A stretch of DNA of 23,366 nt from a virus: the IMG/VR virus record IMGVR_UViG_3300032323_002420, positions 1-23,366 of that record; one strand, 5' to 3'. Below are positions 1,782 through 21,483 of the stretch, in pieces. A program made the position numbers and the translations under genes. Numbering within the stretch: position 1 is the first letter of the stretch; each line of letters opens with the position of its first letter. The notes below the pieces were generated by a model, which was given only the letters and a program-made list of their open reading frames with translations, searched no databases and was not told the DNA's origin.

Positions 1782-1993
1782 TGAATTCAGCAGTTTTTAA
1801 GTTTAGAGTTGATGGCAGTGATTATCAAAACATACAAGAAAAAGCTAAAAAAGAACTTTCTGGATTTATTGAGGTAGATCTTGAAGAGCTTAACAAGTAT
1901 GTTAGCTATGAATTAGAGATTGAACCGAATACAAAAACAACTAGTACCTACTCATATACCGCTTTAGTGACTGCGAGGTTGAAGAATGTCTGA
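1781..1993 (+). CDS. Hypothetical small protein, GTG start
   Basis: This 70-residue protein begins at a GTG that shares its first base with the preceding TAG stop and ends 8 nt inside the next gene, which points to translational coupling. The chain alternates charged helices (EKAKKELSGF, DLEELNKYVSYEL) with a Thr/Tyr-rich C-terminus (TSTYSYTALVTARL) that may form beta strands. I see no known motif, no Cys and no membrane segment. I do not recognise the family; the strict overlaps with both neighbours make it a likely real gene. Confidence 0.6.
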   Translation: MNSAVFKFRVDGSDYQNIQEKAKKELSGFIEVDLEELNKYVSYELEIEPNTKTTSTYSYTALVTARLKNV

Positions 1994-2336
1994 TAATGTA
2001 AATAACACAGTTCCCCCTGTTAATGAATATATGAAACAGACTTCTGATACCCCGCATCGAGTAGAGGCTCTTCGTGAAGCTGCTCGAATTACTACACAAG
2101 ATAGAAATGCTAACTATGGCGGACCAGAAGAAAACTTTACAAGAACTGCAAAAATCTGGTCTGTAATTCTTGGACAAGAGATTACAAACGAGCAGGTTGC
2201 AATGATGATGGTTGGTCTAAAGATGGCACGCTTTGCCCATGGGTCTGGCTTCCAACCAGATACTTGGATAGACATTGCTGGATATGCAGGATGCGGATAT
2301 GAAGTAGGAAAGATAGAGTCAGAAAAACTTAAATAG
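1986..2336 (+). CDS. DUF6378-like protein
   Basis: The 116-residue protein matches the pattern I associate with phage DUF6378 proteins. An R-x-x-NYGGPEENF segment (residues about 38-48) is followed by an IW-SVILG-x-EITNEQVAMMM helix. The C-terminus has LKMARFA and then DTWIDIAGYAG. The conserved charged residues resemble those of small all-alpha nucleotide-binding or MazG-like folds, but the family has no established activity that I can assert. It overlaps the preceding gene by 8 nt and is followed by the Wbl gene 16 nt later, so it sits in the middle of the forward operon. The family call is fairly confident from the RNANYG / DIAGYA pattern; function is unknown. Confidence 0.75.
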   Translation: MSDNVNNTVPPVNEYMKQTSDTPHRVEALREAARITTQDRNANYGGPEENFTRTAKIWSVILGQEITNEQVAMMMVGLKMARFAHGSGFQPDTWIDIAGYAGCGYEVGKIESEKLK

Positions 2337-2352
2337 TTTCTTGGAGGGGAAC

Positions 2353-2649
2353 ATGTCTGAGCTTGTACCACCTTGGAAGTATGAACAACCGCTCTGTGCT
2401 GAGATAGGCGCAGAGCTGTTTTATATTGAAGATAAAGATGAAGTAGTTGTTGGCCAAAGACTTAATGCTTATGTTGAAGCTAAAAAGATATGTTCATCAT
2501 GTGCTCACATAGTTGAATGTGGTCAATGGGCTATAAAAAATGAAAAGCATGGTTTTTGGGGAGGATATTCTCCAGAAGAAAGAAAACAAATAAGAGGTAA
2601 ATTAAATATAATACTTACAGAAGATATGACGTTTGCTCTACAAGAGTAG
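2353..2649 (+). CDS. WhiB-like (Wbl) iron-sulfur transcriptional regulator, first copy
   Basis: This 98-residue protein has the four-cysteine arrangement of Wbl proteins. Numbered from the ATG at 2353 these are Cys15, Cys47, Cys50 and Cys56 (C-x31-C-x2-C-x5-C), followed by the turn GFWGGYSPEERKQIR, the family's G-[VI/F]-W-G-G signature with adjacent basic residues. Wbl proteins hold a [4Fe-4S] cluster and act with the primary sigma factor; phage members are known to alter host transcription and superinfection. The start is set by a strong GGAGGGG at 2343-2349, and the in-frame TTG at 2341 lies within that site. The x31 spacing is slightly long for the family but acceptable. Its presence is the main evidence for an actinobacterial host. 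Confidence 0.9.
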   Translation: MSELVPPWKYEQPLCAEIGAELFYIEDKDEVVVGQRLNAYVEAKKICSSCAHIVECGQWAIKNEKHGFWGGYSPEERKQIRGKLNIILTEDMTFALQE

Positions 2650-3358: not shown

Positions 3359-3883
3359 ATGTGGAAACCAGCGGAAAACCTTAATTGGCAGTCAGAAGCT
3401 ACTTGCGCCAAACCTTCTAATAGATACGCTTTAGACTGGTTCTTCTCTAAAGACTTTAAAGAAAAATATGCGGCTAAGAACATGTGCTTTACCTGTCCTG
3501 TGCGCTCAGAATGCCTTCAGTGGGCTCTAGAGCATCGTCAGATCTGGGGTATCTGGGGAGGAAGAGATGAAGTTGATATTCGTAGAGCTCTATCTGTGTC
3601 CTATAACGGTGAAGAAACAAGACGCCGCAGATTCCCTAACTGTCCTTATTGCACAGCTAGACCTTCAAAGTTAGAAACTTCTATTGAACAGCTTCCTAAT
3701 GGTGGTCGTTGGACCACAGCAAAAGTTGTTACATGCACGGAGTGTGGTTTTGCTTGGAGAAGCCGTACTAGTGCAAATGCAGTTGAAGCTTATAAGTTAG
3801 AACGTAATGAAAAGTCTAATAGAAAAACTAAATCTAAAAAATCTTCCTCGTCCAAACCTGTAAGCCTTTCTCCAAAACAGTAA
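3359..3883 (+). CDS. WhiB-like (Wbl) regulator with added C-terminal zinc ribbon, second copy
   Basis: This 174-residue protein has an N-terminal Wbl domain with Cys16, Cys43, Cys46 and Cys52 (C-x26-C-x2-C-x5-C) and the signature GIWGG at residues 64-68, followed by the basic helix RDEVDIRRAL. Unlike standard Wbl proteins of about 80-120 residues it continues with a second four-Cys unit: CPYC at 95-98 and CTEC at 126-129, a zinc-ribbon layout preceded by RRRRF. It ends in a Lys/Ser tail (RKTKSKKSSSS). Expected role: [4Fe-4S]-dependent partner of host sigma factor, with the extra ribbon and tail perhaps contacting DNA or polymerase. It appears leaderless. Its last 50 nt overlap the convergent methyltransferase gene. 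Confidence 0.88.
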   Translation: MWKPAENLNWQSEATCAKPSNRYALDWFFSKDFKEKYAAKNMCFTCPVRSECLQWALEHRQIWGIWGGRDEVDIRRALSVSYNGEETRRRRFPNCPYCTARPSKLETSIEQLPNGGRWTTAKVVTCTECGFAWRSRTSANAVEAYKLERNEKSNRKTKSKKSSSSKPVSLSPKQ

Positions 3884-4409
3884 CTTTGTTTGTGTAAGGG
3901 ATTAAAAATGCATCAATACCAGTTTTTGGCTGATCCATTTTAGGCAAAGAAGATCCCCACATATAATCATCAAAGGCAAGTATTCCTCCGTTGTTTAAGC
4001 AAGAATACCCGTCTAAGCCATCTCTAAGAGCCCAGATTGCATGATGATCTGCATCTACATAAACAAACTCATACTTTTTGTCGTTTGACTTAAAAAATTC
4101 TTTAGTTGTCATTTTCTTTTTTATTAGCTGACCTGAGTCAAGAAAAGGTCTTAACTTTTGATCGTAGGTATCTTCTACGCTTTTCCAGTCCATATCCATA
4201 TGCTCTTCTTCTTCAGAGCCTTCCCATGTGTCAACATCTGTCAAAGTTGACTCTGGGTGGGTAAGAACATTATCAAAAAGCCATACTGAAGCATCTCCTG
4301 TGTATGCTCCTAATTGAAGAAAATCTACCTTTACATCTTTATACACAGGTAGAAATTTAGAAAAGTTATGAATTGCTCCACCTTCAATAAACCAATTAGG
4401 GTATGTCAT
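3834..4409 (-). CDS. Class I SAM-dependent methyltransferase (Methyltransf_24-like)
   Basis: This 191-residue protein has class I methyltransferase features. Motif I is LQLGAYTGDAS (residues 31-41), which binds S-adenosylmethionine. An acidic DVDTW around 58-62 fits the ribose-binding position. VYVDADHHAIWALRD (117-131) and GGILAFDDYMW (141-151) resemble the D-x-DH and G-G-x-x-x-x-DDY segments of metal-assisted O-methyltransferases such as the CmcI/TylF type. Its first four bases overlap the end of the GT2 gene (ATGA), so the two are translationally coupled and may act on the same sugar-bearing product. The acceptor is unknown. It overlaps the second Wbl gene tail-to-tail by 50 nt. Confidence 0.8.
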   Translation of the reverse strand: MTYPNWFIEGGAIHNFSKFLPVYKDVKVDFLQLGAYTGDASVWLFDNVLTHPESTLTDVDTWEGSEEEEHMDMDWKSVEDTYDQKLRPFLDSGQLIKKKMTTKEFFKSNDKKYEFVYVDADHHAIWALRDGLDGYSCLNNGGILAFDDYMWGSSLPKMDQPKTGIDAFLIPYTNKVTVLEKGLQVWTRKIF

Positions 4410-5467
4410 GCTTTTTGCTCGCAGAATGCTAAGTTATTAGAAAGTCGTTCCTTGTGCTCAGGGGTGGCAATCTCTAAAGCAGCTTTGGCATGGACAACTG
4501 CATCTTGATATCTTCCTAAGTTGTAAGCAGCAATTGCCGCCATATCGTGCGGTGTATGTCCCCAAGCCTCTGCTTCACAGAGATACTCCATAGGCTTAAC
4601 AGTAATTGCTAAAGCTTGAGTTGCTACGTCATAACACTCTTCCCATTTACCGATTGAGTAGTAGTGCTGAGCGAGATCAACATATGCTTCTCTGCGCTCT
4701 GGAGCTTCTTTTATTGCCATGGTAAACCATAGTTCTGCATCTTCTTTAGAAAGCTTTCCTATAAAACGCATAGATGCTGCACGCTCTGGTGCCCATCTTG
4801 CGGTGTGTAGCTGTAGATGACGTTTAAATTCTTCTTTTGCTTCATCAAGTCTATTGTAGAAATATAGCTCTCTTGCGTAGTAGAAAGCATTTCTGTCATC
4901 GTATGGATCTTCTTCAACAGAAGTTTTTAGTAAATCTAAATACTGTCCTCGTGATTTTGTGTTATCTGCGTGGTGCTCCATAGTCGCTTGAGTCCAATAC
5001 TGAACCTCTTGCATGCGATCAGGCACTAAAACTTCATGTACTGGATGCTTCCAACGGTATCCGTGACGAGCATGGATTTTATCTCCGCCAAAGGTAAGTC
5101 CGGGAGTTCCGTCTTCATTCCAATTCCAAATATAATTGTATCTAGGGCGAGTGGCTTTAGCTTCAAATGCTTTCTCAAGCTCTGCCTTCCATCCCGGCAA
5201 CATAATCTCATCCATATCTAGTGGGATGCAATAGTCAATATCAGCTGGAAGTAGTCCTAAAGAAACATTTCTTGCTTGATCGAAGCGCCAAGGTCTTACA
5301 CAGATAGATACAACATTAATCCCTAAAGCAAGAGCCTTCTCAACAGTCTTATCTGTTGATCCCGTATCAGCTATGAGTAGGTAGTCTGCTTCATCTTTTA
5401 CAGAGTTATACCAAGTCTCAACAAATTTTTCTTCGTTGAGGGCTATTGTGTAGACAGCTACTTTCAT
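4406..5467 (-). CDS. Family 2 glycosyltransferase with TPR-like C-terminal region
   Basis: This 353-residue protein begins with the GT-A pattern of GT2 enzymes: TIALNEEKFVETW (7-19), then ADTGSTDKT (33-41) for nucleotide-sugar binding, and the metal-binding D-x-D as PLDMDE (82-87). HPVHE at 141-145 fits the acceptor-side region. From about residue 190 the chain turns into helical pairs with TPR spacing (NAFYYARELYFYNRLDEAKE, AYVDLAQHYYSIGKWEECYD, AAYNLGRYQDAVVHAKAAL). That combination is known from bacterial SunS-like and phage glycosyltransferases, where the TPR part can bind a peptide or protein acceptor. The ATG has GGAGAG 8 nt upstream. It is the first gene of a two-gene reverse unit with the methyltransferase. 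Confidence 0.88.
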   Translation of the reverse strand: MKVAVYTIALNEEKFVETWYNSVKDEADYLLIADTGSTDKTVEKALALGINVVSICVRPWRFDQARNVSLGLLPADIDYCIPLDMDEIMLPGWKAELEKAFEAKATRPRYNYIWNWNEDGTPGLTFGGDKIHARHGYRWKHPVHEVLVPDRMQEVQYWTQATMEHHADNTKSRGQYLDLLKTSVEEDPYDDRNAFYYARELYFYNRLDEAKEEFKRHLQLHTARWAPERAASMRFIGKLSKEDAELWFTMAIKEAPERREAYVDLAQHYYSIGKWEECYDVATQALAITVKPMEYLCEAEAWGHTPHDMAAIAAYNLGRYQDAVVHAKAALEIATPEHKERLSNNLAFCEQKA

Positions 5468-5496
5468 ATTTTATCTCTCCATCACCTATTTTTATT

Positions 5497-5502
5497 ATTA
5501 TA
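5497..5502 (-). promoter_or_regulatory. Possible -10 element for the GT2/methyltransferase unit
   Basis: Read on the reverse strand, TATAAT lies 29 nt upstream of the GT2 start codon, giving an expected leader of about 20 nt that contains the GGAGAG ribosome site. No good -35 hexamer is visible at the normal spacing. The 177-nt divergent gap (5468-5644) must hold promoters for both directions, and this is the best reverse-strand candidate I see. Confidence 0.35.
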
Positions 5503-5561
5503 TAAACCTACCACATTAGAGTTAGCATACCAGAATCCTTTCATAAATCTTGCCTAATCTA

Positions 5562-5637
5562 TAAGATCTGTACAAATAAAATGTTTATAATAAAACTTAA
5601 AAGATATAGTTGCTCTATAGTCAATTAAGATCTATAC
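5562..5637. repeat. Direct repeat TAAGATCTRTAC in the divergent promoter gap
   Basis: TAAGATCTGTAC at 5562-5573 and TAAGATCTATAC at 5626-5637 differ at one base, are 64 nt apart, and contain the palindrome AGATCT. The second copy overlaps the proposed -10 (TATACT) of the forward promoter, so this could be an operator pair controlling the divergent units. It may also be chance similarity in AT-rich DNA. Confidence 0.3.
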
Positions 5638-5638
5638 T
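5605..5638 (+). promoter_or_regulatory. Putative leaderless promoter for the forward DUF6065-like unit
   Basis: TTGCTC at 5610-5615 and TATACT at 5633-5638 are separated by a 17-nt spacer, a good primary-sigma promoter. The -10 ends 6 nt before the ATG at 5645, so the transcript should start at or next to the start codon. No ribosome site is present, consistent with leaderless translation, which is common in Actinobacteria. TATAGT occurs at 5605-5610 and 5616-5621, as it does upstream of the second Wbl gene. Confidence 0.5.
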
Positions 5639-5644
5639 GAACTT

Positions 5645-6367
5645 ATGAAAAAGCATATAATTAAATTTAAAGCAATTGACTCATATGCTATGAATGTGGC
5701 TATGCCCCCAGAACCAGCTTCAAATTATGTACCTAAATGGTGGAAAAATATGGAAGCTTTTACATCAGATAAGCTTCTTTCTAAAGAAGGATCATCTAGA
5801 TTCTATCCTCACGTTACATCTAAAAAATGTTTTCCAATGATTGATGCTATGACAGCTGGATATATTATTCCACTTTGGGCAGATCTAGAAGTTTCTTATG
5901 TTGGAGAAGATACTGAGCCTACTGTTACTTGGCTTACTGATAGAGCAGTAGTGACTTCTTGGGCTAAAGAGTTTACAGAAGATATGGAAAAACCAGACGA
6001 TTGTGCAGGTATTGCTTTTAAATTAAGTAATCAGTTTATTATTGAAACACCAGCAGGGTGGTCTTCTTTGTTTATTCATCCTATAGGATACCCTAATCTT
6101 CCCTTTAGATCTATAGCAGGGGTAGTTGACACCGATAAACTAAAAACAGACATTAATCAACCATTCTGGATTAAAAAAGGTTTTACAGGGGTTATTCCTC
6201 AGGGGACTCCAATAGCTCAAGTTATACCTTTTCAAAGACAAGATTGGGAATCTACAGTTGAAGAAATGGAAAAAGATGCTCACTACTTTAACCATCAAAA
6301 ATTTTTAAAAACAAAAGCTCAGGGGGCTTATGGCTTGTATCAAAGAGTGAAGAAGTCTTTTAAATGA
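5645..6367 (+). CDS. DUF6065-like protein A, paralogue of the reverse copy at 8118-8843
   Basis: This 240-residue protein is of unknown function. It shares a clear pattern with the reverse-strand neighbour: ASNYVPKWW (25-33), KKCFPMIDAMTAGY (60-73) followed by LWADLEV, TVTWL (93-97), ETPAGWSSLFIHP (134-146), LPFRSIAGVVDTD (152-164), and GTPIAQVIPFQRQDWES (187-203). The conserved Cys-x3-D and G-T-P-I-A-Q-x-x-P segments suggest a soluble enzyme-like or binding fold. I associate this pattern with DUF6065, tentatively. The Pro/Trp-rich N-terminus and lack of a signal peptide point to the cytoplasm. It is leaderless and overlaps the next gene by ATGA. Together with the halogenase-linked copy it suggests a role in the same pathway. 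Confidence 0.65.
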   Translation: MKKHIIKFKAIDSYAMNVAMPPEPASNYVPKWWKNMEAFTSDKLLSKEGSSRFYPHVTSKKCFPMIDAMTAGYIIPLWADLEVSYVGEDTEPTVTWLTDRAVVTSWAKEFTEDMEKPDDCAGIAFKLSNQFIIETPAGWSSLFIHPIGYPNLPFRSIAGVVDTDKLKTDINQPFWIKKGFTGVIPQGTPIAQVIPFQRQDWESTVEEMEKDAHYFNHQKFLKTKAQGAYGLYQRVKKSFK

Positions 6368-6642
6368 ATTTTGAGTGGATTCAAGCCCTAAAAACTATGG
6401 GCACAAAAAAGTATTGGACAAAACCTAACACAGTTGAGTTTTTTGCTTTTGTAGCAAAAGCAATAATTATTATTCCAGGACTGCTATTTGGTATTCAAAT
6501 ATGGTGGTTATACATATTTGCTTTAGTCTCAAGTCTGGCCTTAATATGGTCTTCAACTGTAAAAACTATACCTACACTTATTTGGTTCAACATACTCTGG
6601 AGTATCCTAGCTTCAGTAGCTATATTGAAACAATTCTATTAG
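6364..6642 (+). CDS. Small multi-pass membrane protein
   Basis: This 92-residue protein overlaps the preceding gene by 4 nt (ATGA). After a short polar N-terminus (EWIQALKTMGTKKYWTKP) it is mostly hydrophobic, with likely membrane segments around residues 26-53 (FFAFVAKAIIIIPGLLFG and the WWLYIFALV stretch, perhaps two close helices) and around 70-87 (IPTLIWFNILWSILASVA). It fits an inner-membrane protein with two to three helices; basic residues before the first helix suggest a cytoplasmic N-terminus. Coupling to the DUF6065-like gene suggests a partner function such as export or anchoring, but a holin-like or immunity role cannot be excluded. Its 3' end overlaps the convergent halogenase by 23 nt. 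Confidence 0.65.
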   Translation: MNFEWIQALKTMGTKKYWTKPNTVEFFAFVAKAIIIIPGLLFGIQIWWLYIFALVSSLALIWSSTVKTIPTLIWFNILWSILASVAILKQFY

Positions 6643-8116
6643 CAGGAACTATTTCAAACTTAGAAAAAACTGTTTCTTCTTTAAAGTCATAGTAACTAGC
6701 AAATAGTTTATATTCCACTTCGGCAGAACCATATAAATTATGTTTTTCTAATGTTTGTTTTGCAATTTTTGGGTCTATAAAATCTAATCCAGATAAAATC
6801 CAGTTCCATAAATGAGAAGATGAGCCCCACCTAGAGTTAGCGTAATGTATAGCGCTCGGTACTTGAGTCTTACACCTTTCTATAGTATCGGCAACAAAAG
6901 GGGTGATAACTTCTCCAGTTTTAATATACTTCCAAAACTCTGAATCATCTCTTCCACCTAAATAATGTAAAACAATAAAATCTCTATACTCGTCATATAC
7001 ATCCGTGATAATTTTATTGTAGGTTTTTATATTTACTTCAGTTGCTGTTTTTTCAACAGTCACGTCTAGATACTCTTTTGCAAATATTAAAAGCTGCAGA
7101 ATAGTAGAATGTATTGATGTAGCTTCTAAAGGCTCGCTAAAAGCTCCAGCTAACCCTGTAGCTAAACAATTACCACTCCACAACTGATCTAACCTGCCTG
7201 AGTCAAATTTAAGATGACGAATTGGTTGTATTTTTTTCCCTAAAAAAGTTTCAACTTCTTCTTGTGCCTCATCCTCTGAAAGAAAATTAGAGTTATACAC
7301 ATAACCACATCCTTTTCTTGTTGTTAAAGGGATATCCCATAGCCAGCCAGAAGAAAGTGCAGTTGAAGTTGTTAAAGGCTCTACAATCTCTGTAGATAAA
7401 GGGTCATACTCAACTATAAATGGCATAGCTCTGTCTGCAGTAAGATTTTTAGAATAGGACTTCCATCCTACTCCTAACTTATTCATTAAAACTCTTGCAA
7501 ACCCCGTACAGTCAATAAAAAAATCTCCGCTAATAGTTTGATTATTATCTAAAACTATACTTTCAATTGTTCCATTGCTATTAACTTTTACGTCTTTAAT
7601 TAATGAGTCTATATGTGTAACTAAATTGTCTTTTAAAAGTTTTTCTTTAAAAAAATTTCCAACTTTTACAGCATCAAAATGAAATCCATGCCCACCTGAA
7701 GGCATTCTTTTTCTATCATAGGATTGTCCTATATGAGAAGATAAATAGGCTTTTTTATTTCCATATTTTGATATAACATAATTGAAAGTAGGATCTGGAG
7801 ATGATTGTATAGACTTACTTGAGTCTAAAGGAGCGAAGTAAAAACTTTTTGCATCATTACCCCAGTTGGCATGTTTAATCCCCATTTTTATTGTTGAGTC
7901 TGTTTTTTCAAAAAAATCGTCTAAAGAATCATTACGACCCCAAATATAACCAGTAACAATATCAAAAAGAAGACCAGTTGAGCCTTCTCCTGCACCAATA
8001 ATTCCTATTGATGATGATTCTACAACTGTAATATTATGTTTTTTTGGTTGAGTATTAGAAATAATGTATGCTGCAAGCCATCCAGCAGTTCCACCACCGC
8101 ACACAACAATGTTCAT
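6620..8116 (-). CDS. prnA-like: Flavin-dependent tryptophan-halogenase-like enzyme
   Basis: This 498-residue protein has the landmarks of flavin-dependent halogenases. The FAD-binding loop is GGGTAGW (7-13), with GAGEGST (41-47) after the first domain. A lysine in STIKMGIKHANW (Lys77) matches the catalytic Lys of PrnA. The halogenase signature WxWxIP is present as WLWDIP (258-263), followed by GYVYNSNF. AFSEPLEATSIHST (325-338) contains Glu331, matching the second catalytic Glu. These enzymes use FADH2, O2 and halide to form HOCl or HOBr, delivered through a tunnel to the Lys. Start: Met at 8116 with a plausible AAGGA, one base after the upstream stop, not the longer frame to 8164. Substrate is unknown; a flavin reductase must come from the host. 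Cyanophage relatives are known. Confidence 0.9.
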   Translation of the reverse strand: MNIVVCGGGTAGWLAAYIISNTQPKKHNITVVESSSIGIIGAGEGSTGLLFDIVTGYIWGRNDSLDDFFEKTDSTIKMGIKHANWGNDAKSFYFAPLDSSKSIQSSPDPTFNYVISKYGNKKAYLSSHIGQSYDRKRMPSGGHGFHFDAVKVGNFFKEKLLKDNLVTHIDSLIKDVKVNSNGTIESIVLDNNQTISGDFFIDCTGFARVLMNKLGVGWKSYSKNLTADRAMPFIVEYDPLSTEIVEPLTTSTALSSGWLWDIPLTTRKGCGYVYNSNFLSEDEAQEEVETFLGKKIQPIRHLKFDSGRLDQLWSGNCLATGLAGAFSEPLEATSIHSTILQLLIFAKEYLDVTVEKTATEVNIKTYNKIITDVYDEYRDFIVLHYLGGRDDSEFWKYIKTGEVITPFVADTIERCKTQVPSAIHYANSRWGSSSHLWNWILSGLDFIDPKIAKQTLEKHNLYGSAEVEYKLFASYYDFKEETVFSKFEIVPANRIVSI

Positions 8117-8117
8117 A

Positions 8118-8843
8118 TTATTTATATTCCTTTTTTGTCCAATGTATTTTTTTATATAAACCACCTAATGATCTTCTAGAATCATAAGATTGTTGAATTG
8201 CTTCTTGTTCAAGGTTTTTATCTCCTATTTCAGATTCCCAAGACTCTCTTTTATATGGGAACAACTGAGCGATAGGGGTACCAGCTTTTATAATTCCCTC
8301 AAAATCACTTCTTAAAAAGAAAGGAATAATTCCTGCAGGAAAATAAGAGTCGCTATCAATTATTCCAGAAAGAGTAGTAAACGGAAGATCAAATCTATTT
8401 TGCGGATGAGTCAGTAGAACGCTGTAACCTTTGGGAACTTTGATAGCAAATTGAGAAACCCAACCATAATGAACGCTATCGTGTCCTGCTGGACGAGGTA
8501 TGTTAGCCCCAGAACGTTGATCTCTTACTACTAATGGGTCTGGTGGAACAAGCCATGTTAGGTGTGCTTCACCATCCACAGACCTTGTTACTTGTATATC
8601 TGTCCACAGCTCTACCATATATCCAGATGTCATAACATCTAAAAAAGAAACGCAATGTTTCAATCCTTGATTAGCAGAATAGTTCTCAATCTGAGGCTTA
8701 TCTGAGCCCAGCCATCTTTCAGATTGTGTGTACCAGCTGGGAAGATATGTAGAAGATTTTTTAGGTTCTGGAAGTTTAATATCTACGTTTTGAGATATTT
8801 GACCTAAAGTTCCTTGTCCTATAAAAGTTATTTTTTTAGTCAT
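8118..8843 (-). CDS. DUF6065-like protein B, coupled to the halogenase
   Basis: This 241-residue protein is a diverged paralogue of the forward copy at 5645-6367. Shared segments are KSSTYLPSWY (29-38), LKHCVSFLDVMTSGYMVELW (61-80), HLTWL, KVPKGYSVLLTHP (135-147), LPFTTLSGIIDSD (153-165) and GTPIAQLFPYKRESWES (188-204). The Cys64 and the GTPIAQ block are retained. Its ATG is preceded by AAGGA at good spacing and its stop lies one base before the halogenase start, so the two are translationally coupled and probably function together, for example in substrate handling or as a partner of the halogenase. The family call is tentative and the activity unknown. It lies 32 nt downstream of the fibre operon. 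Confidence 0.65.
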   Translation of the reverse strand: MTKKITFIGQGTLGQISQNVDIKLPEPKKSSTYLPSWYTQSERWLGSDKPQIENYSANQGLKHCVSFLDVMTSGYMVELWTDIQVTRSVDGEAHLTWLVPPDPLVVRDQRSGANIPRPAGHDSVHYGWVSQFAIKVPKGYSVLLTHPQNRFDLPFTTLSGIIDSDSYFPAGIIPFFLRSDFEGIIKAGTPIAQLFPYKRESWESEIGDKNLEQEAIQQSYDSRRSLGGLYKKIHWTKKEYK

Positions 8844-8875: not shown

Positions 8876-9511
8876 TTAGTAAGGAGTTGCCCCACTAAAA
8901 CTAGCATTAGCTGATCCTGTCCAAAAACCGTTACTGCCTCCGTCAAAGTACGACTTTAGCGTAGTTGACTTCTCTAGCATAACAGAATCCACATAAAAAA
9001 TCTCTCCTGCAGTAGTTGAGCCTGTAACTACTCTAATAATCATAAAATTTGCAGAACTTTGCTTTGTCACGGAAGCACCTAAACGCACCCAGTTACCTGT
9101 ATATGATAAAGATTGAAGGCCAATGTTTGTTGCCGAAACTGTGCTAACAGAGTTCTGTTCCTCATACTGTAACTGACGTATAAAATAGGTTGCTGGTGAA
9201 TTACCGCTGGCAAGTTTTACATACGCACTTATATAATAAGTACCTTCTCCTGCTACTAAAGGAATCATAGATCCTTCGTTACCAAACTGAGCAGCTGACC
9301 CAGAGGCGTTAGTAACAGCTAGAGATGCAGAACCAGTATTAGATTCACCTGTTGTTCTAGCAATAGTCCCTCCTGCAGTTGCAACCCAATTCGTTGTATC
9401 TACCTCAAAAGATGGGTTAGTAATATAATTAACTCTATATCCAAGTGCTGCAGGTTCGGCACGGTTCTTTAAAAACCCAGCTCCACTAGATATTCCTAAA
9501 CTTAATGGCAT
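8876..9511 (-). CDS. Putative tail protein with carbohydrate-binding jelly-roll domain
   Basis: This 211-residue protein has a short N-terminal anchor-like segment (MPLSLGISSGAGFLK) and then NYITNPSFEVDTTNW (28-42), the typical entry to CBM4/9-like galactose-binding beta-sandwiches. TYYISAYVKLASG (91-103) and a C-terminal strand region with EIFYVDSVMLEKS complete the fold. The last residues (YFDGGSNGFWTGSANAS and onward) are a common closing motif in phage and bacterial adhesins. It probably sits on the tail tip or fibre and binds host glycans. The ATG follows TTAGGAGC, and the gene begins 12 nt downstream of the collagen-like fibre gene's stop in the same operon. Confidence 0.75.
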   Translation of the reverse strand: MPLSLGISSGAGFLKNRAEPAALGYRVNYITNPSFEVDTTNWVATAGGTIARTTGESNTGSASLAVTNASGSAAQFGNEGSMIPLVAGEGTYYISAYVKLASGNSPATYFIRQLQYEEQNSVSTVSATNIGLQSLSYTGNWVRLGASVTKQSSANFMIIRVVTGSTTAGEIFYVDSVMLEKSTTLKSYFDGGSNGFWTGSANASFSGATPY

Positions 9512-9523
9512 ACTTGCTCCTAA

Positions 9524-10810
9524 CTATGTGAGGGCTACGTCGCCAGCTAGAACCCATTCGTCTGTTCCAATTTTAATAATAGATGCAGTTGAGTAGGTAG
9601 CTCTTAGTTTATTTGTAGGTGTAGATCTAAGAGTAACTCCAGTATCACCGCTAACAGTTACTTGACCTGCTCCATATTGCATAATGTCAACTCTTTGTCC
9701 TATTGAATATGCTGCTGCAGCATTTGTAGGGATGATAATTGACATTGCTGTACCTTTTGTACATCTAATAAGTTTTCCAGCATCACCTAAAACTAAAGTA
9801 TATGTATCAGATTTAACTTCGATTGTTTGAGCTGTATCCCAAGTTCCTTGTGCACCTGTAGGGCCACTAGCGCCTGTCGGACCAGTTACCGCTGCACCAG
9901 TAGGTCCAGTAGGACCAGTTACAGTTGACGGTGCTCCAGTAGGACCAGTTGCCCCAGGTAATCCTTGAGGACCAGTGGCTCCTGTTGCTCCAGTAGGTCC
10001 TGTTAATCCTGTTGGACCAGTAGCTCCCGTAGGACCCCCTGAAGGACCTGTTGGGCCAGGAACTGTGCTTGCAGCTCCAGTTGGCCCTGTAGGACCTGTA
10101 ATACTTGCACCAGTAGGGCCAGTTGGACCAACAAAAGGGCCAGCATTGCTCCATGCCGAGTTTAAATCGTTCCAAATATAAAGATTAGTACCTACTAGAT
10201 ATGAATCTCCAATTGATGCAGTTGGGTTATCTGCTTCAAGTAGTTCAACTGTTGCATAAGATCCAAGAACAGAAACACCTGATCCTTGTGGACCTGTAGG
10301 TCCAGAAACTCCTGTAGGACCAGTTGGTCCTTGGGGACCTGTAGGTCCAGTTGGTGCAATTGTAGCTACTGTATTAAAACCACTTCCTGTGTAAAGTGAT
10401 ACAGCATTAGATGAACTATTTACCCAGATGTCTCCAACTTGAGGAGATCCTGGCTGTGTTGATTGATAAACAATATTTGATCTACCACTTGATTCATATG
10501 CTGCAGTGGCAGAAAAAGACGCATTAGCAGTGCTTGCTCCAACATAAATTTTATCGCCAACAGCTAATGCAAATCTAAATGTTTCAAAAGACTGTCCTAC
10601 TCCAATAAGCAAACTACTGACAATATAAACACGAGTGTTAGGGTTTCCTGGAGACTCGACTGGTTCAATAAAAACAGTTGCCGTTAAATCTACAGCACCT
10701 TTATTTGCAATAATTACTGAAGCAACGCATGCAACATCTGCAGTAGCAAGTTCTGTAAATGTACTTACAAAAGCAGCAGGAGAAACTAATCCTAAACGTT
10801 TTACTGGCAT
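9524..10810 (-). CDS. Collagen-like tail fibre protein
   Basis: This 428-residue protein has four parts. Residues 1-105 form an N-terminal module ([36 protein letters not shown]) shared with the 460-aa fibre. A short collagen-like tract (153-177) precedes a small spacer ([17 protein letters not shown]). The main collagen tract (228-322) is dominated by G-P-T triplets, with interruptions such as [10 protein letters not shown]-terminal beta domain (327-426) follows, a likely receptor-binding or trimer-capping tip. Collagen triplets without hydroxyproline form triple helices in phage fibres. The start has AAAGGAGC upstream, and its first bases overlap a 49-aa membrane protein gene. Confidence 0.85.
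9845..10354 (-). repeat. Collagen-like G-P-T triplet tracts of the 428-aa fibre
   Basis: Two tracts, at 10280-10354 and 9845-10129, encode tandem Gly-x-y triplets, mostly Gly-Pro-Thr. On the plus strand they read as repeated GGACCAGTAGGTCC-like DNA, which creates misleading open frames on the opposite strand. Such DNA is prone to recombination and length change. Confidence 0.85.

Positions 10811-11187: not shown

Positions 11188-11191
<4 letters not shown>
10940..11191 (-). CDS. Hypothetical protein between two fibre genes
   Basis: This 83-residue acidic protein begins with an ATGA overlap on the stop of the 460-aa fibre gene. A second Met three codons in (ETVGKFEWK) is an alternative start. 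The sequence alternates strands and loops ([22 protein letters not shown]), then has [19 protein letters not shown] with two adjacent Cys. I recognise no family. Its placement inside the structural operon suggests a small virion component or fibre chaperone, but that is inference only. Confidence 0.6.
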
Positions 11192-12570
<1,379 letters not shown>

Positions 12571-18921: not shown

Positions 18922-21483
18922 TTATGCCCTCCATCTTAGAATAACGATGCCAGATCCACCAGCACCACCAGGGTTTCCAGCGTTATAGTGAGCACCGCCA
19001 CCACCACCACCACCAGTGTTAGCACCAGCGTTACCGCCTGGAGTTTGAGCCCAAGTACTAGTACCGCCGCCGCCACCAGGAGATCCATTATTAAAACCTG
19101 AGCCACCAGATGTTGAACCAACAGCACCGCCGCCGCCTCCACCTGCACCACCATCTCCGCCTCTTGCAGAGTATCCTGACCCGCCGCCACCGCCAGCCCA
19201 GAAGTAAGAAGTTCCAAGTAAAACACTTTGAAGACCGTTTCCACCTCTAGGGTTTCCACCGTCTGCTCTACCAACTTCAGAAGCTCCACCGCCACCAGCT
19301 GGATACCAATATCCTCCACCTACACCGCCAGCAAAACCTTGTCCCGGAGTTCCTTCACCCCAACGGCCTCCGCCATAACCAGAACCGCCTCGTGCTCCAC
19401 CTTCACCACCAGATGCTCCACCACCAGAACCACCGTTAGCAGCAGGGTTGTTTGACTGATCGTGGTTAGAAGCTGCACCTCCACCACCAATTGCTGTAAG
19501 AGTTCCAACTACAGGACCAGATAAAACAGAGTTTCCTCCGCTTCCGCCTCTTGCTTGTCCTTGTCCAGCTGCAGCACCGCCGCCGCCTCCGCCTACAGTA
19601 ATTGCGTATGTTCCACCTTGAGTGGTAAATGAACCTTGTAACAAACCACCTGCGCCGCCGCCGCCGCCCATATCAGAACCGCCGCCACCGCCACCTGCAA
19701 CAATTAAGTAGTCAACTACACCTTGTCCAGCAAATATAACTTGACCACCTGAACCAGCATTTACATATCTTAGAGTCTTGTAAGCTACACCACCAAAACT
19801 AACATCTTGAGCAGTTACCCCTAGACCACTTGCTGTTGCAGTTAAGTTTAGAGTAGCTCCTAAGTCAAAATTATGAATGTCATATACGGTTTCAACAAAG
19901 TAATGGTCTACTTCATCTGCACCTGAAACACATGTAAATCTCTGCCCTGCCCCAGCTGGAAATTCATACCTGACCATATCTTTTGCTGCAAAACCGTGGT
20001 TTTTAATATGAAAAATATTTCTATCTAAAGATACACCAATTGCACTAAATTTTTGAGTACCTGTTCCTCCAGATATTGATGTTACGGCAGCTCCGTTTGG
20101 AGTTGGTTTAACGGTAAAAGCATAGTTAATACCGCCTGTAGGAAATACTGTGTCAATAAAGTATGTTGCATTGTTTGTTAAACCAGTTGCAGCTGAGCCT
20201 GTAGTTGTATATCTCAGCATACTTCCAGTGTAGAAATCCAAGTTTGCTACACCTGAATCTGAAGCTACAGTAATCAAAGAACCACTGTAACTAACAACAG
20301 TTCCAGATCTATTTGTCAAAAGAATTGTATTTAAAGTTCTATCATTTGCACCATCAAATACTTGTGCAGCATCTTCAATAATTGTTACTGTATTTTCTGT
20401 TAAAGGGTTTACGTTATTTCCAGAAAAAGTACGAGCTTGATTTGCAAGCTGGAAGGTTCCAGACATAGATGAAACAATATCTATAACATCTCCATCAGGA
20501 GTGGCACTTACTTGAAAAGTAGATTGCCCTGCTGGGCTATTTAAGGCTGTAGTTGTTTTTAAAAATACAACGCCTCTAGGGTTATCAAAGAAGTATCCAG
20601 AAGATGCTGGAACTGTTAATCTGTAGTATAAAGGAGTTCCTAACGGTCTGCTAGCAAAAGTCTCTGCACCATGAGTAACGGTAATTGTGTCAGCTGAAGT
20701 ATTTACTGCTGAAATTGTGCTGGTAGATCCTCCAACAGTTGCGCTGTTTGACCAATCAATGTTAAAAGTTGAAAGGCTGTTAGATCCATCAAATGTTTGA
20801 GCTGTTGCAGAGTTTGATGAGTCAAAAGACTTAGCTGCAGTATTTGAAGCTTCAAACTCTTGAGAAATTGTAGAGTTAAGGTTTAGGAAGTAAAAAGGTG
20901 TATTAAGACCAAAACCGTGAGTTGAGTCTGTTTTTACTGTAAGAGTAGAAGTTGCTTCTCCATTTGTAGTGATACCTTCTGCGTCTGCAATACGAATTTG
21001 TGAGCCTTGGAAAAACTCGCCAGTAATGATAGATGTATAAAGATCTTCAATGGCGTTATTGCCTTGCTGAATATCTTTACAAAGATATGTAAAAGTAAAT
21101 GTATTCGGGATAGAGTTAATAATATAAGCACCGTCTGCGGTAACTGATTTTGTTCCAGTTACGTTAATAGGAATACCTACAGCTAGGCCATGATCTGTAG
21201 CGGTTACTACAGTAATTTCACGGGTACCTGTGTTTGTTGCAATAGATACAATACCTGGAATAGTAGTATCACCGCTCTTAGAAAAGAACGATGGAGTGTT
21301 GTTGATAAGCTCAACTGTTTCCCACTTGGTTGGCTGCAGACCGTATTCAAAGTCTGTATCAATGAGGTTTTCAGGCTGCGAGATACGGAGTTTAGTTACT
21401 GGATCTATAAACTCTTTTGGAAAACGAATTTCTCCGCCAGCACCACTGGAGCCACTACTGCTACCGCCTAAAAAGCCTGGCAT
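18922..21483 (-). CDS. 853-residue virion structural protein with C-terminal glycine-rich domain
   Basis: The N-terminus (GEIRFPKEFIDPVTKLRIS, then LIDTDFEYGLQPTKWET at about residues 40-56) is a pattern I associate with T4-like cyanophage structural proteins and marks a likely baseplate attachment domain. The middle (about 80-570) is beta-rich with diverged copies of the HG / L-x-N-x-x-Y-F module also found in the 2112-aa protein. From about 590 the chain enters a glycine-rich domain starting VDYLIVAGGGGGG and ending GGSGIVILRW, a classical closing motif. It is probably a tail-tip adhesin or baseplate-fibre connector. The ATG follows GAGAGGTG. It is separated from the collagen-like gene upstream by 81 nt, in which I see no convincing promoter. 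Confidence 0.85.
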   Translation of the reverse strand: MPGFLGGSSSGSSGAGGEIRFPKEFIDPVTKLRISQPENLIDTDFEYGLQPTKWETVELINNTPSFFSKSGDTTIPGIVSIATNTGTREITVVTATDHGLAVGIPINVTGTKSVTADGAYIINSIPNTFTFTYLCKDIQQGNNAIEDLYTSIITGEFFQGSQIRIADAEGITTNGEATSTLTVKTDSTHGFGLNTPFYFLNLNSTISQEFEASNTAAKSFDSSNSATAQTFDGSNSLSTFNIDWSNSATVGGSTSTISAVNTSADTITVTHGAETFASRPLGTPLYYRLTVPASSGYFFDNPRGVVFLKTTTALNSPAGQSTFQVSATPDGDVIDIVSSMSGTFQLANQARTFSGNNVNPLTENTVTIIEDAAQVFDGANDRTLNTILLTNRSGTVVSYSGSLITVASDSGVANLDFYTGSMLRYTTTGSAATGLTNNATYFIDTVFPTGGINYAFTVKPTPNGAAVTSISGGTGTQKFSAIGVSLDRNIFHIKNHGFAAKDMVRYEFPAGAGQRFTCVSGADEVDHYFVETVYDIHNFDLGATLNLTATASGLGVTAQDVSFGGVAYKTLRYVNAGSGGQVIFAGQGVVDYLIVAGGGGGGSDMGGGGGAGGLLQGSFTTQGGTYAITVGGGGGGAAAGQGQARGGSGGNSVLSGPVVGTLTAIGGGGAASNHDQSNNPAANGGSGGGASGGEGGARGGSGYGGGRWGEGTPGQGFAGGVGGGYWYPAGGGGASEVGRADGGNPRGGNGLQSVLLGTSYFWAGGGGGSGYSARGGDGGAGGGGGGAVGSTSGGSGFNNGSPGGGGGTSTWAQTPGGNAGANTGGGGGGGAHYNAGNPGGAGGSGIVILRWRA
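18945..19720 (-). repeat. Glycine-rich low-complexity domain in the 853-aa protein
   Basis: Glycine-rich sequence with GGGGGG blocks separated by short polar or hydrophobic turns (TYAITVGGGGGG, GGNSVLSG, YFWAGGGGGSGY). It resembles the domain in the 2112-aa neighbour in composition but not in exact order. Opposite-strand open frames over this region are artefacts of its base composition. Confidence 0.75.

Follow-up and report, generated by a model that had tools for sequence, protein, structure and literature searches.

A recurrent slot of exchangeable halogenase, glycosyltransferase and DUF6065-like genes beside the tail-fibre genes of a virus

The virus record IMGVR_UViG_3300032323_002420 is a stretch of 23,366 bases (the window), and our subject is a group of six genes that lies in it between a WhiB-like regulator gene and a run of collagen-like tail-fibre genes: a methyltransferase (MT), a glycosyltransferase (GT), a flavin-dependent halogenase (HAL), a small membrane protein (MEM) and two proteins resembling DUF6065 (DUFa and DUFb; Table 1). 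A preliminary description, made from the sequence alone, had read the six as a miniature tailoring pathway. Open reading frame (ORF) and profile checks found all six genes where it had placed them, except that HAL is likelier to start at the ATG at 8116, one base past the DUFa stop codon, than at the GTG at 8164, and the protein would therefore have 498 amino acids. On the minus strand the order is collagen-like fibre genes, CBM-like gene, DUFa and then HAL, while on the plus strand DUFb and MEM are read in the direction of HAL, whose 3' end they overlap; a four-base overlap joins GT to MT, and this pair converges on the WhiB gene. This arrangement by strand suggests three units: DUFa with HAL, lying downstream of the fibre genes, DUFb with MEM, and GT with MT. 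A promoter scan gave them no support (11 promoter-like sites, with 20.5 expected by chance).

Table 1. The six genes, the borders of their slot, the adjoining fibre genes and other ORFs, by position in the window
Feature	Position	Strand	Evidence
MT: S-adenosylmethionine (SAM) methyltransferase (Methyltransf_24)	3834-4409	-	PF13578, E 1.2e-9
GT: GT2 domain and TPR repeats	4406-5467	-	PF00535, E 3e-10; phrog_13126, E 1e-117; DMD (DxD-type) motif visible
DUFb: second phrog_7084 protein	5645-6367	+	phrog_7084, E 5e-44
MEM: 92-amino-acid membrane protein	6364-6642	+	no family; one short and three long helices predicted
HAL: flavin-dependent halogenase family	6620-8116 from the likelier ATG (6620-8164 from GTG)	-	PF04820, E 4e-84
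DUFa	8118-8843	-	phrog_7084, E 6e-40; no Pfam match; dUTPase-fold model
CBM-like gene, fibre-side border of the slot	8876-9511	-	PF02018, E 1.4e-8
Two collagen-like (GPT/GAT-repeat) fibre genes, small ORF between them	9524-10810, 11188-12570	-	tail-fibre PHROGs; repeats seen and found by rule
WhiB-like regulator, slot border away from the fibres	3359-3883	+	PF02467, E 1.5e-16; overlaps MT 3' end
Second WhiB-like ORF	2341-2649		
116-amino-acid ORF	1986-2336		phrog_474 (annotated phosphofructokinase; name doubtful for such a short protein)
853-amino-acid protein	18922-21483		long Gly-rich end

The host of the virus is probably a freshwater actinobacterium, given the WhiB genes, a gene order in common with the Actinomycetia phage DSL-LC01 (OQ999401), and a phage-like contig of 3,469 bases (L107; related loci carry L numbers here) in a Microbacteriaceae metagenome-assembled genome that holds tail-like genes and a DUF pair. 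Megablast found no near relative of the window among named phages.

Among related loci the same slot recurs between fibre or CBM genes and, often, a WhiB gene, with contents that differ from one locus to the next (in these maps genes were named by profile and fibres by eye). The slot holds MT-DUF-GT in L016, MT-GT-HAL in L214, MT-MEM-GT-HAL in L173, HAL-MEM-GT-MT in L178, HAL-F10-MEM-GT-MT in L152 (where the 5' side is cut off; F10 is a DUF relative described below), DUF-GT-MT in L031, MT-GT with two DUFs in L071, and DUF-MT-GT in L027 and L030, where WhiB is not in reach. The 5.8-kb fragment L179 has HAL-GT-MT and a MEM gene that converges on HAL, an arrangement also seen in the window, and DSL-LC01 has HAL-GT. 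The CBM protein is 88% identical to that of the window in both L016 and L017, and in L178 the CBM gene, GT and MT look very like those of the window while the halogenase comes from another clade. The halogenase profile PF04820 was not matched in the 76-kb record of L016 or in the records of L027, L030, L031 and L081, and was matched in the remaining 15 of the 20 records checked. Three modules thus move separately, which we call A (GT-MT), B (HAL-MEM) and C (the DUF pair).

The cassette is real, recurrent and modular. Its grouping is not the chance assembly that the preliminary description had held open, since HAL, MEM, GT and MT stand together again in L152, L173, L178 and L179, and halogenase and DUF6065-like genes do co-occur: a DUF lies within 2.5 kb in 12/86 halogenase loci, and a halogenase in 8/82 DUF loci. 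The proposal of a single six-gene pathway was rejected, because the modules separate among relatives: DUF, GT and MT occur without a halogenase in the L016 record, no DUF accompanies HAL, GT and MT in the stretches of L173, L178, L179 and L214, and most DUF loci have no halogenase nearby. The counts within 2.5 kb, here and below, refer to non-identical loci (86 halogenase, 82 DUF and 52 MEM), with near meaning within 2.5 kb; the profile scans of viral contigs took 80 of at least 504-585 relatives, and the samples lean to the near kin of the window. Redundancy removal took out identical or near-identical rows only, which leaves related phages that are not independent, and the profiles for 2-oxoglutarate (2OG) oxygenase, F10, GT, MT, CMD and WhiB were built from the same loci, making near/far contrasts with them partly circular.

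The most interesting part of the cassette is MEM. It has no match in Pfam, PHROGs, NCBIfam or PADLOC. No relative came up among 50,697 records of named phages, nor in 296 actinobacterial genomes, where a control of the search recovered 8/8 virus records with MEM and matched 0/3 others; viral contigs contain at least 504 relatives. From 80 fetched loci the MEM ORF was called in 76 (4 were dropped), and a halogenase lies within 1 kb of it in 47 of these (38 of 56 distinct MEM sequences), usually touching or overlapping MEM. Within 2.5 kb a halogenase is present at 35 of the 52 non-identical MEM loci, and counted by genes it makes up 35/375 near MEM against 2/325 far from it (p 3e-8). From the halogenase side the counts are looser, with MEM within 2.5 kb in 13/86 loci (near 13/709, far 0/325, p 0.013), so that the tie is tighter seen from MEM than seen from the halogenase. 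On a FastTree tree of 162 halogenases, MEM adjacency amounts to 16 changes and reaches distant clades (a raw count without a shuffled control). As far as our searches went the halogenase-MEM link is new, MEM having no name by which the literature could be searched.

The MEM model (pLDDT 80) has four predicted helices, three long and one short. As to a three-helix carrier fold like that of SemiSWEET and mitochondrial pyruvate carrier (MPC) half-carriers, its top VIA-align row was MPC (Z 8.5, root-mean-square deviation 2.8, 80 aligned), with unrelated helical rows reaching 7.8, and Foldseek returned no significant fold match (best E 2.1). Some MEM members gave weak matches at chance level, Asp5 being the best (E 0.012), and these were disregarded. 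As separate observations, an in-frame ORF with halogenase and MEM parts at L174:6423-7865, whose halogenase part seems internally shortened, was not used, and an AhpD/CMD-like protein adjoins MEM or the halogenase in L029, L155, L156, L173 and L198; PF02627 was matched in the L243 member of that family, which might deal with peroxide or hypohalite.

Module A is linked to collagen-like fibre genes. A collagen-like ORF, defined as one with at least six G-x-y triplets rich in P/T, lies within 5 kb of the anchor (GT, HAL, DUF or MEM) in 9/14 loci with GT and 12/245 without (p 4e-8), the near-duplicates L017, L028 and L261, non-viral loci and named-phage loci being excluded. Restriction to WhiB-positive loci gives 5/8 with GT against 1/40 without (p 2e-4), and a stricter rule of ten triplets gives 7/14 against 4/245 overall and 3/8 against 1/40 in the WhiB-positive set (p 0.012). 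The GT protein joins a GT2 domain to TPR repeats by Pfam, the arrangement of the GmaR/SunS-type protein glycosyltransferases. Against solved structures its best matches for the GT domain are all weak (GmaR, E 0.0013; 7msk, 0.0053; SunS, 0.0096 and 0.017), and TPR proteins score slightly above them; these values put the likeness to SunS-type enzymes at E 0.005-0.017, and the score of 23.7 bits against the SunS equivalog TIGR04195 is below its cut-off of 350. Since collagen-like ORFs concentrate near GT loci, our best guess is that GT-MT decorates the Thr-rich collagen-like fibres, and the two fibre genes next to the slot are the proposed acceptor of module A. We met no report of the GT-collagen link in the literature, and as far as searched it is new.

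These two linkages bear on whether the slot is simply a tolerant hot-spot, in which unrelated accessory genes gather beside fibre genes, so that none of the six has to work with another. The free reshuffling at the slot is what such a site would give, as is the finding that DUFs mostly occur without a halogenase, but MEM follows halogenases across distant clades and outside this slot, and the GT-collagen link holds within WhiB-positive loci too. Relatives, too, have low G+C in HAL and MEM, which is therefore no sign of recent import into the window. We regard the hot-spot as an unlikely explanation.

HAL itself scores above the PF04820 cut-off and has the landmarks of its family: GGGTAGW, K77, WLWDIP and SEPLE (with E328), which correspond to the GxGxxG motif, the catalytic Lys, the WxWxIP motif and the active-site Glu of flavin-dependent halogenases; K77 and E328 are invariant in 17 aligned halogenases. 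The closest relative is the L179 halogenase, at 58% identity, and the best of the solved structures are bacterial Trp halogenases (E 1.2e-58), ahead of the phage enzyme VirX1 (6qgm; E 4.5e-44). The Tyr/Glu-bearing segment HYHGFESYSY of a Trp 5-halogenase, a region that presumably binds free tryptophan, aligns with SRWGSSSHLW in HAL, which may make free tryptophan a less likely substrate. Halogenase genes are frequent in aquatic phages, and we know of no natural substrate for any of their enzymes; the linked membrane protein, the fixed slot by collagen-like fibres and the protein-type GT narrow the search for one. Elsewhere, on the marine-type viral contigs L005-L007 and L010, spans of 15-21 kb contain arrays of four or five halogenases, which fall in separate, position-like clades of the tree, and in L004:1-10281 a halogenase lies between QueE-, QueC- and dCTP-deaminase-like ORFs (by eye), a possible 7-deazaguanine link.

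The neighbours of halogenases also raise the possibility that the cassette makes a halogenated, glycosylated and methylated small molecule. Such a pathway has been proposed, in the part of the paper available to us, for the cluster of halogenase, 2OG oxygenase, carbamoyltransferase and methylase genes of phage S-SSM6a (PMC7824862), and 2OG oxygenases lie within 2.5 kb in 45 of the 86 halogenase loci. However, no carbamoyltransferase or 2OG oxygenase PHROG was matched among the 23 window ORFs scanned (the record being a fragment), and GT looks like a protein glycosyltransferase and associates with collagen-like genes, so we consider a metabolite pathway rather improbable here.

The name DUF6065-like, given to DUFa and DUFb in the preliminary description, stands by PHROG (both match phrog_7084) and by homology, and does not stand by the Pfam cut-off, as DUFb reaches 21.3 bits against PF19541/DUF6065 (cut-off 26.6) and DUFa gives no match; the two are 27% identical. 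The predicted model of DUFa (pLDDT 75.9) has a dUTPase fold: dUTPases fill 50/50 listed VIA-align rows (Z 9.4-10.3, root-mean-square deviation 2.8-7.2), and Foldseek places dCTP deaminase and dUTPases on top (best E 2.2e-4). A local profile comparison with hhalign gave E 1.6e-5 and a probability of 79% from dUTPase to DUF, with motifs III and IV in register, and 29% with E 6e-4 in reverse, the dUTPase set being shallow (9 sequences). Motif V, the Gly-rich C-terminal arm, is absent from the DUFa sequence and was not aligned, and neither DUF matches PF00692 at E 0.1, on which grounds ordinary dUTPases were rejected. Among 11 records with a DUF only HF2 has a PF00692 protein besides it (HSTV-2 and S-RIM4 show none), so redundancy with dUTPase is not general. 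Across 173 DUFs, Cys64 and Gly74 round to 100% conservation, Trp37, Ser141 and Tyr230 stand at 98%, Gln193 at 94% and Asp163 at 93%. No paper under the name DUF6065 was found in the literature searched; as far as searched the dUTPase-fold assignment is new, and it gives a first point of entry to a family of which the scanned viral stretches contain at least 585 relatives.

DUF genes often form tandem pairs; 49 halovirus records and one cyanophage carry them. A 2OG oxygenase lies within 2.5 kb at 32 of the 82 DUF loci; by genes the contrast is 105/718 near and 3/426 far for 2OG oxygenases (partly circular) and 10/718 near and 0/426 far for halogenases (p 0.017). In the bacterial DUF loci L107-L123 no halogenase ORF passed (simple ORF calls, poor in G+C-rich DNA, recovered the DUF in 13/17); PF04820 matches somewhere in 10/16 of these genomes, some of them marginal, were given no weight. 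The F10 family (phrog_17480), which adjoins a halogenase or MEM in L018, L029, L046, L106 and L152, is distantly related to the DUFs (E 4e-7, probability 93%). Low-complexity proteins, Pro/Phe/Cys-rich at L084:4878-5735 and Tyr/Asn-rich at L043:6153-7094, lie near DUF genes, and their families, conceivable substrates of oxidative enzymes, occur in 13/96 and 12/96 DUF loci. A GlcNAc-type glycosyltransferase (PF11397; L036:9030-10007) of a family found in 10/96 DUF loci recalls the hydroxyproline glycosylation of Skp1.

We favour, with a rough probability of 0.42 and hence only tentatively, a slot for separable tailoring modules where the row of tail-fibre genes of a probable actinobacterial phage ends, in which GT-MT would act on the fibres, HAL and MEM would be partners, and the DUFs would bind or convert a ligand. 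Most likely GT glycosylates the neighbouring collagen-like fibres, with the acceptor protein bound by its TPR part, as has been suggested for GmaR, after which MT would methylate the sugar or a residue. HAL would take FADH2 supplied by a host reductase, together with oxygen and halide, to form a halogenated aromatic group; the flavin reductase profile PF01613 was matched in 0/20 records. MEM could serve HAL as an anchor, or as a carrier of substrate or halide. The likeliest role of DUFa and DUFb is to bind or convert a small ligand, nucleotide-like or otherwise. A bolder version, which we hold to be doubtful, makes HAL and MEM a phage two-component, membrane-coupled halogenation system that combines with various decoration modules, in this case one that glycosylates fibres, with MEM as an obligatory three-helix partner (half-carrier, halide channel or docking anchor) supplying substrate or halide at the membrane, and the dUTPase-fold proteins with their invariant Cys as a further enzyme or ligand-binding family.

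Several observations weigh against the favoured slot. No halogenase lies within 1 kb at 29/76 MEM loci, and 19 of these 29 records, most of them short, have none at all. The other 10, which count in favour of the MEM-halogenase link, carry one further off (at 1.1 kb in L173) and are 10 of the 11 such records of at least 30 kb, compared with 4/38 control records with a DUF and no nearby halogenase (3/24 at 30 kb or more; p 1.5e-5 for 10/11 against 3/24); the control DUF loci were a hand-picked part of such loci, from records longer than 20 kb with no halogenase in the fetched stretch. Many of the non-adjacent MEM cases seem to belong to a single lineage in which MEM is flanked by primase-like and single-stranded DNA-binding-protein-like genes (by eye), which limits their independence, and the kinship among counted loci weighs on the same side. 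By rule 5/14 GT loci lack a collagen-like ORF, one of them (L152) a short fragment, and the DUF and halogenase query sets contain few GT and MT genes, whose near/far contrasts there are not significant. The haloviral and cyanophage DUFs viewed (three records) lie near ribonucleotide reductase or thymidylate synthase, with no visible link to fibres or a halogenase.

Lastly, part of the 67 named-phage records of the GT family carry the annotation lipooligosaccharide (LOS) or beta-1,4 glycosyltransferase, so that a host glycan is a possible acceptor. Together with the presence of a membrane protein, this would fit a change of the host surface, with GT, MT and the membrane protein modifying a glycan or lipid of the host, for example against superinfection. 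MEM, however, has no Pfam match to the GtrA-type flippase family, on which ground a Gtr serotype-conversion cassette was also rejected, and it goes with the halogenase, whereas GT-MT occurs without MEM in L016, L027, L030, L031 and L214; a host-surface role thus seems distinctly improbable. A defence system was likewise rejected, a PADLOC search of the six proteins giving no match. In the window at large, local G+C climbs to 0.52 with strong skew near 19-20 kb, and Rfam and tRNA scans gave no matches.

The preliminary description held the combination to be unfamiliar in an actinobacterial phage, which does not apply to the halogenase itself, as DSL-LC01 already has the order fibre genes, halogenase, GT and WhiB. 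Its gene order and WhiB border are like those of the window and its GT is 62.5% identical, while its halogenase is distant (21.5%), MEM was not found in the whole record, and there is no DUF in the stretch viewed. A Trp-7-halogenase homologue of DSL-LC01 is named in print, in the accessible part of the source (PMC10611076); a literature search combining tryptophan halogenase, viral and actinobacterial found nothing, though that paper exists, so the search misses things. Halogenase genes are listed in cyanophage surveys, as far as their available text goes (PMC3037559, PMC10452541), and VirX1 of cyanophage Syn10, a phage-borne member of the same flavin-dependent family that matches HAL less well than bacterial Trp halogenases do, prefers iodide according to the portion of the report we could consult (PMC8407142). 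DUFa shares with the dUTPase/dCTP deaminase superfamily (PF00692) its modelled fold and stretches like motifs III and IV, whereas it lacks motif V, neither DUF has a profile match, and the DUFs have their own conserved Cys64 and Tyr230. GmaR, which adds GlcNAc to flagellin with a TPR domain thought to bind the acceptor (PMC9638930, from the text available), has its GT domain followed by TPR as in GT, with the weak similarity given above. Another published parallel, the halogenase cluster of the jumbo cyanophage S-SSM6a, was described by Iyer et al. 2021, in the part available, as a putative metabolite- or polysaccharide-decoration system; both loci combine a halogenase with tailoring enzymes that include methylases, but S-SSM6a has carbamoyltransferases, 2OG oxygenases and cupins where the window has GT, MEM and the DUF pair.

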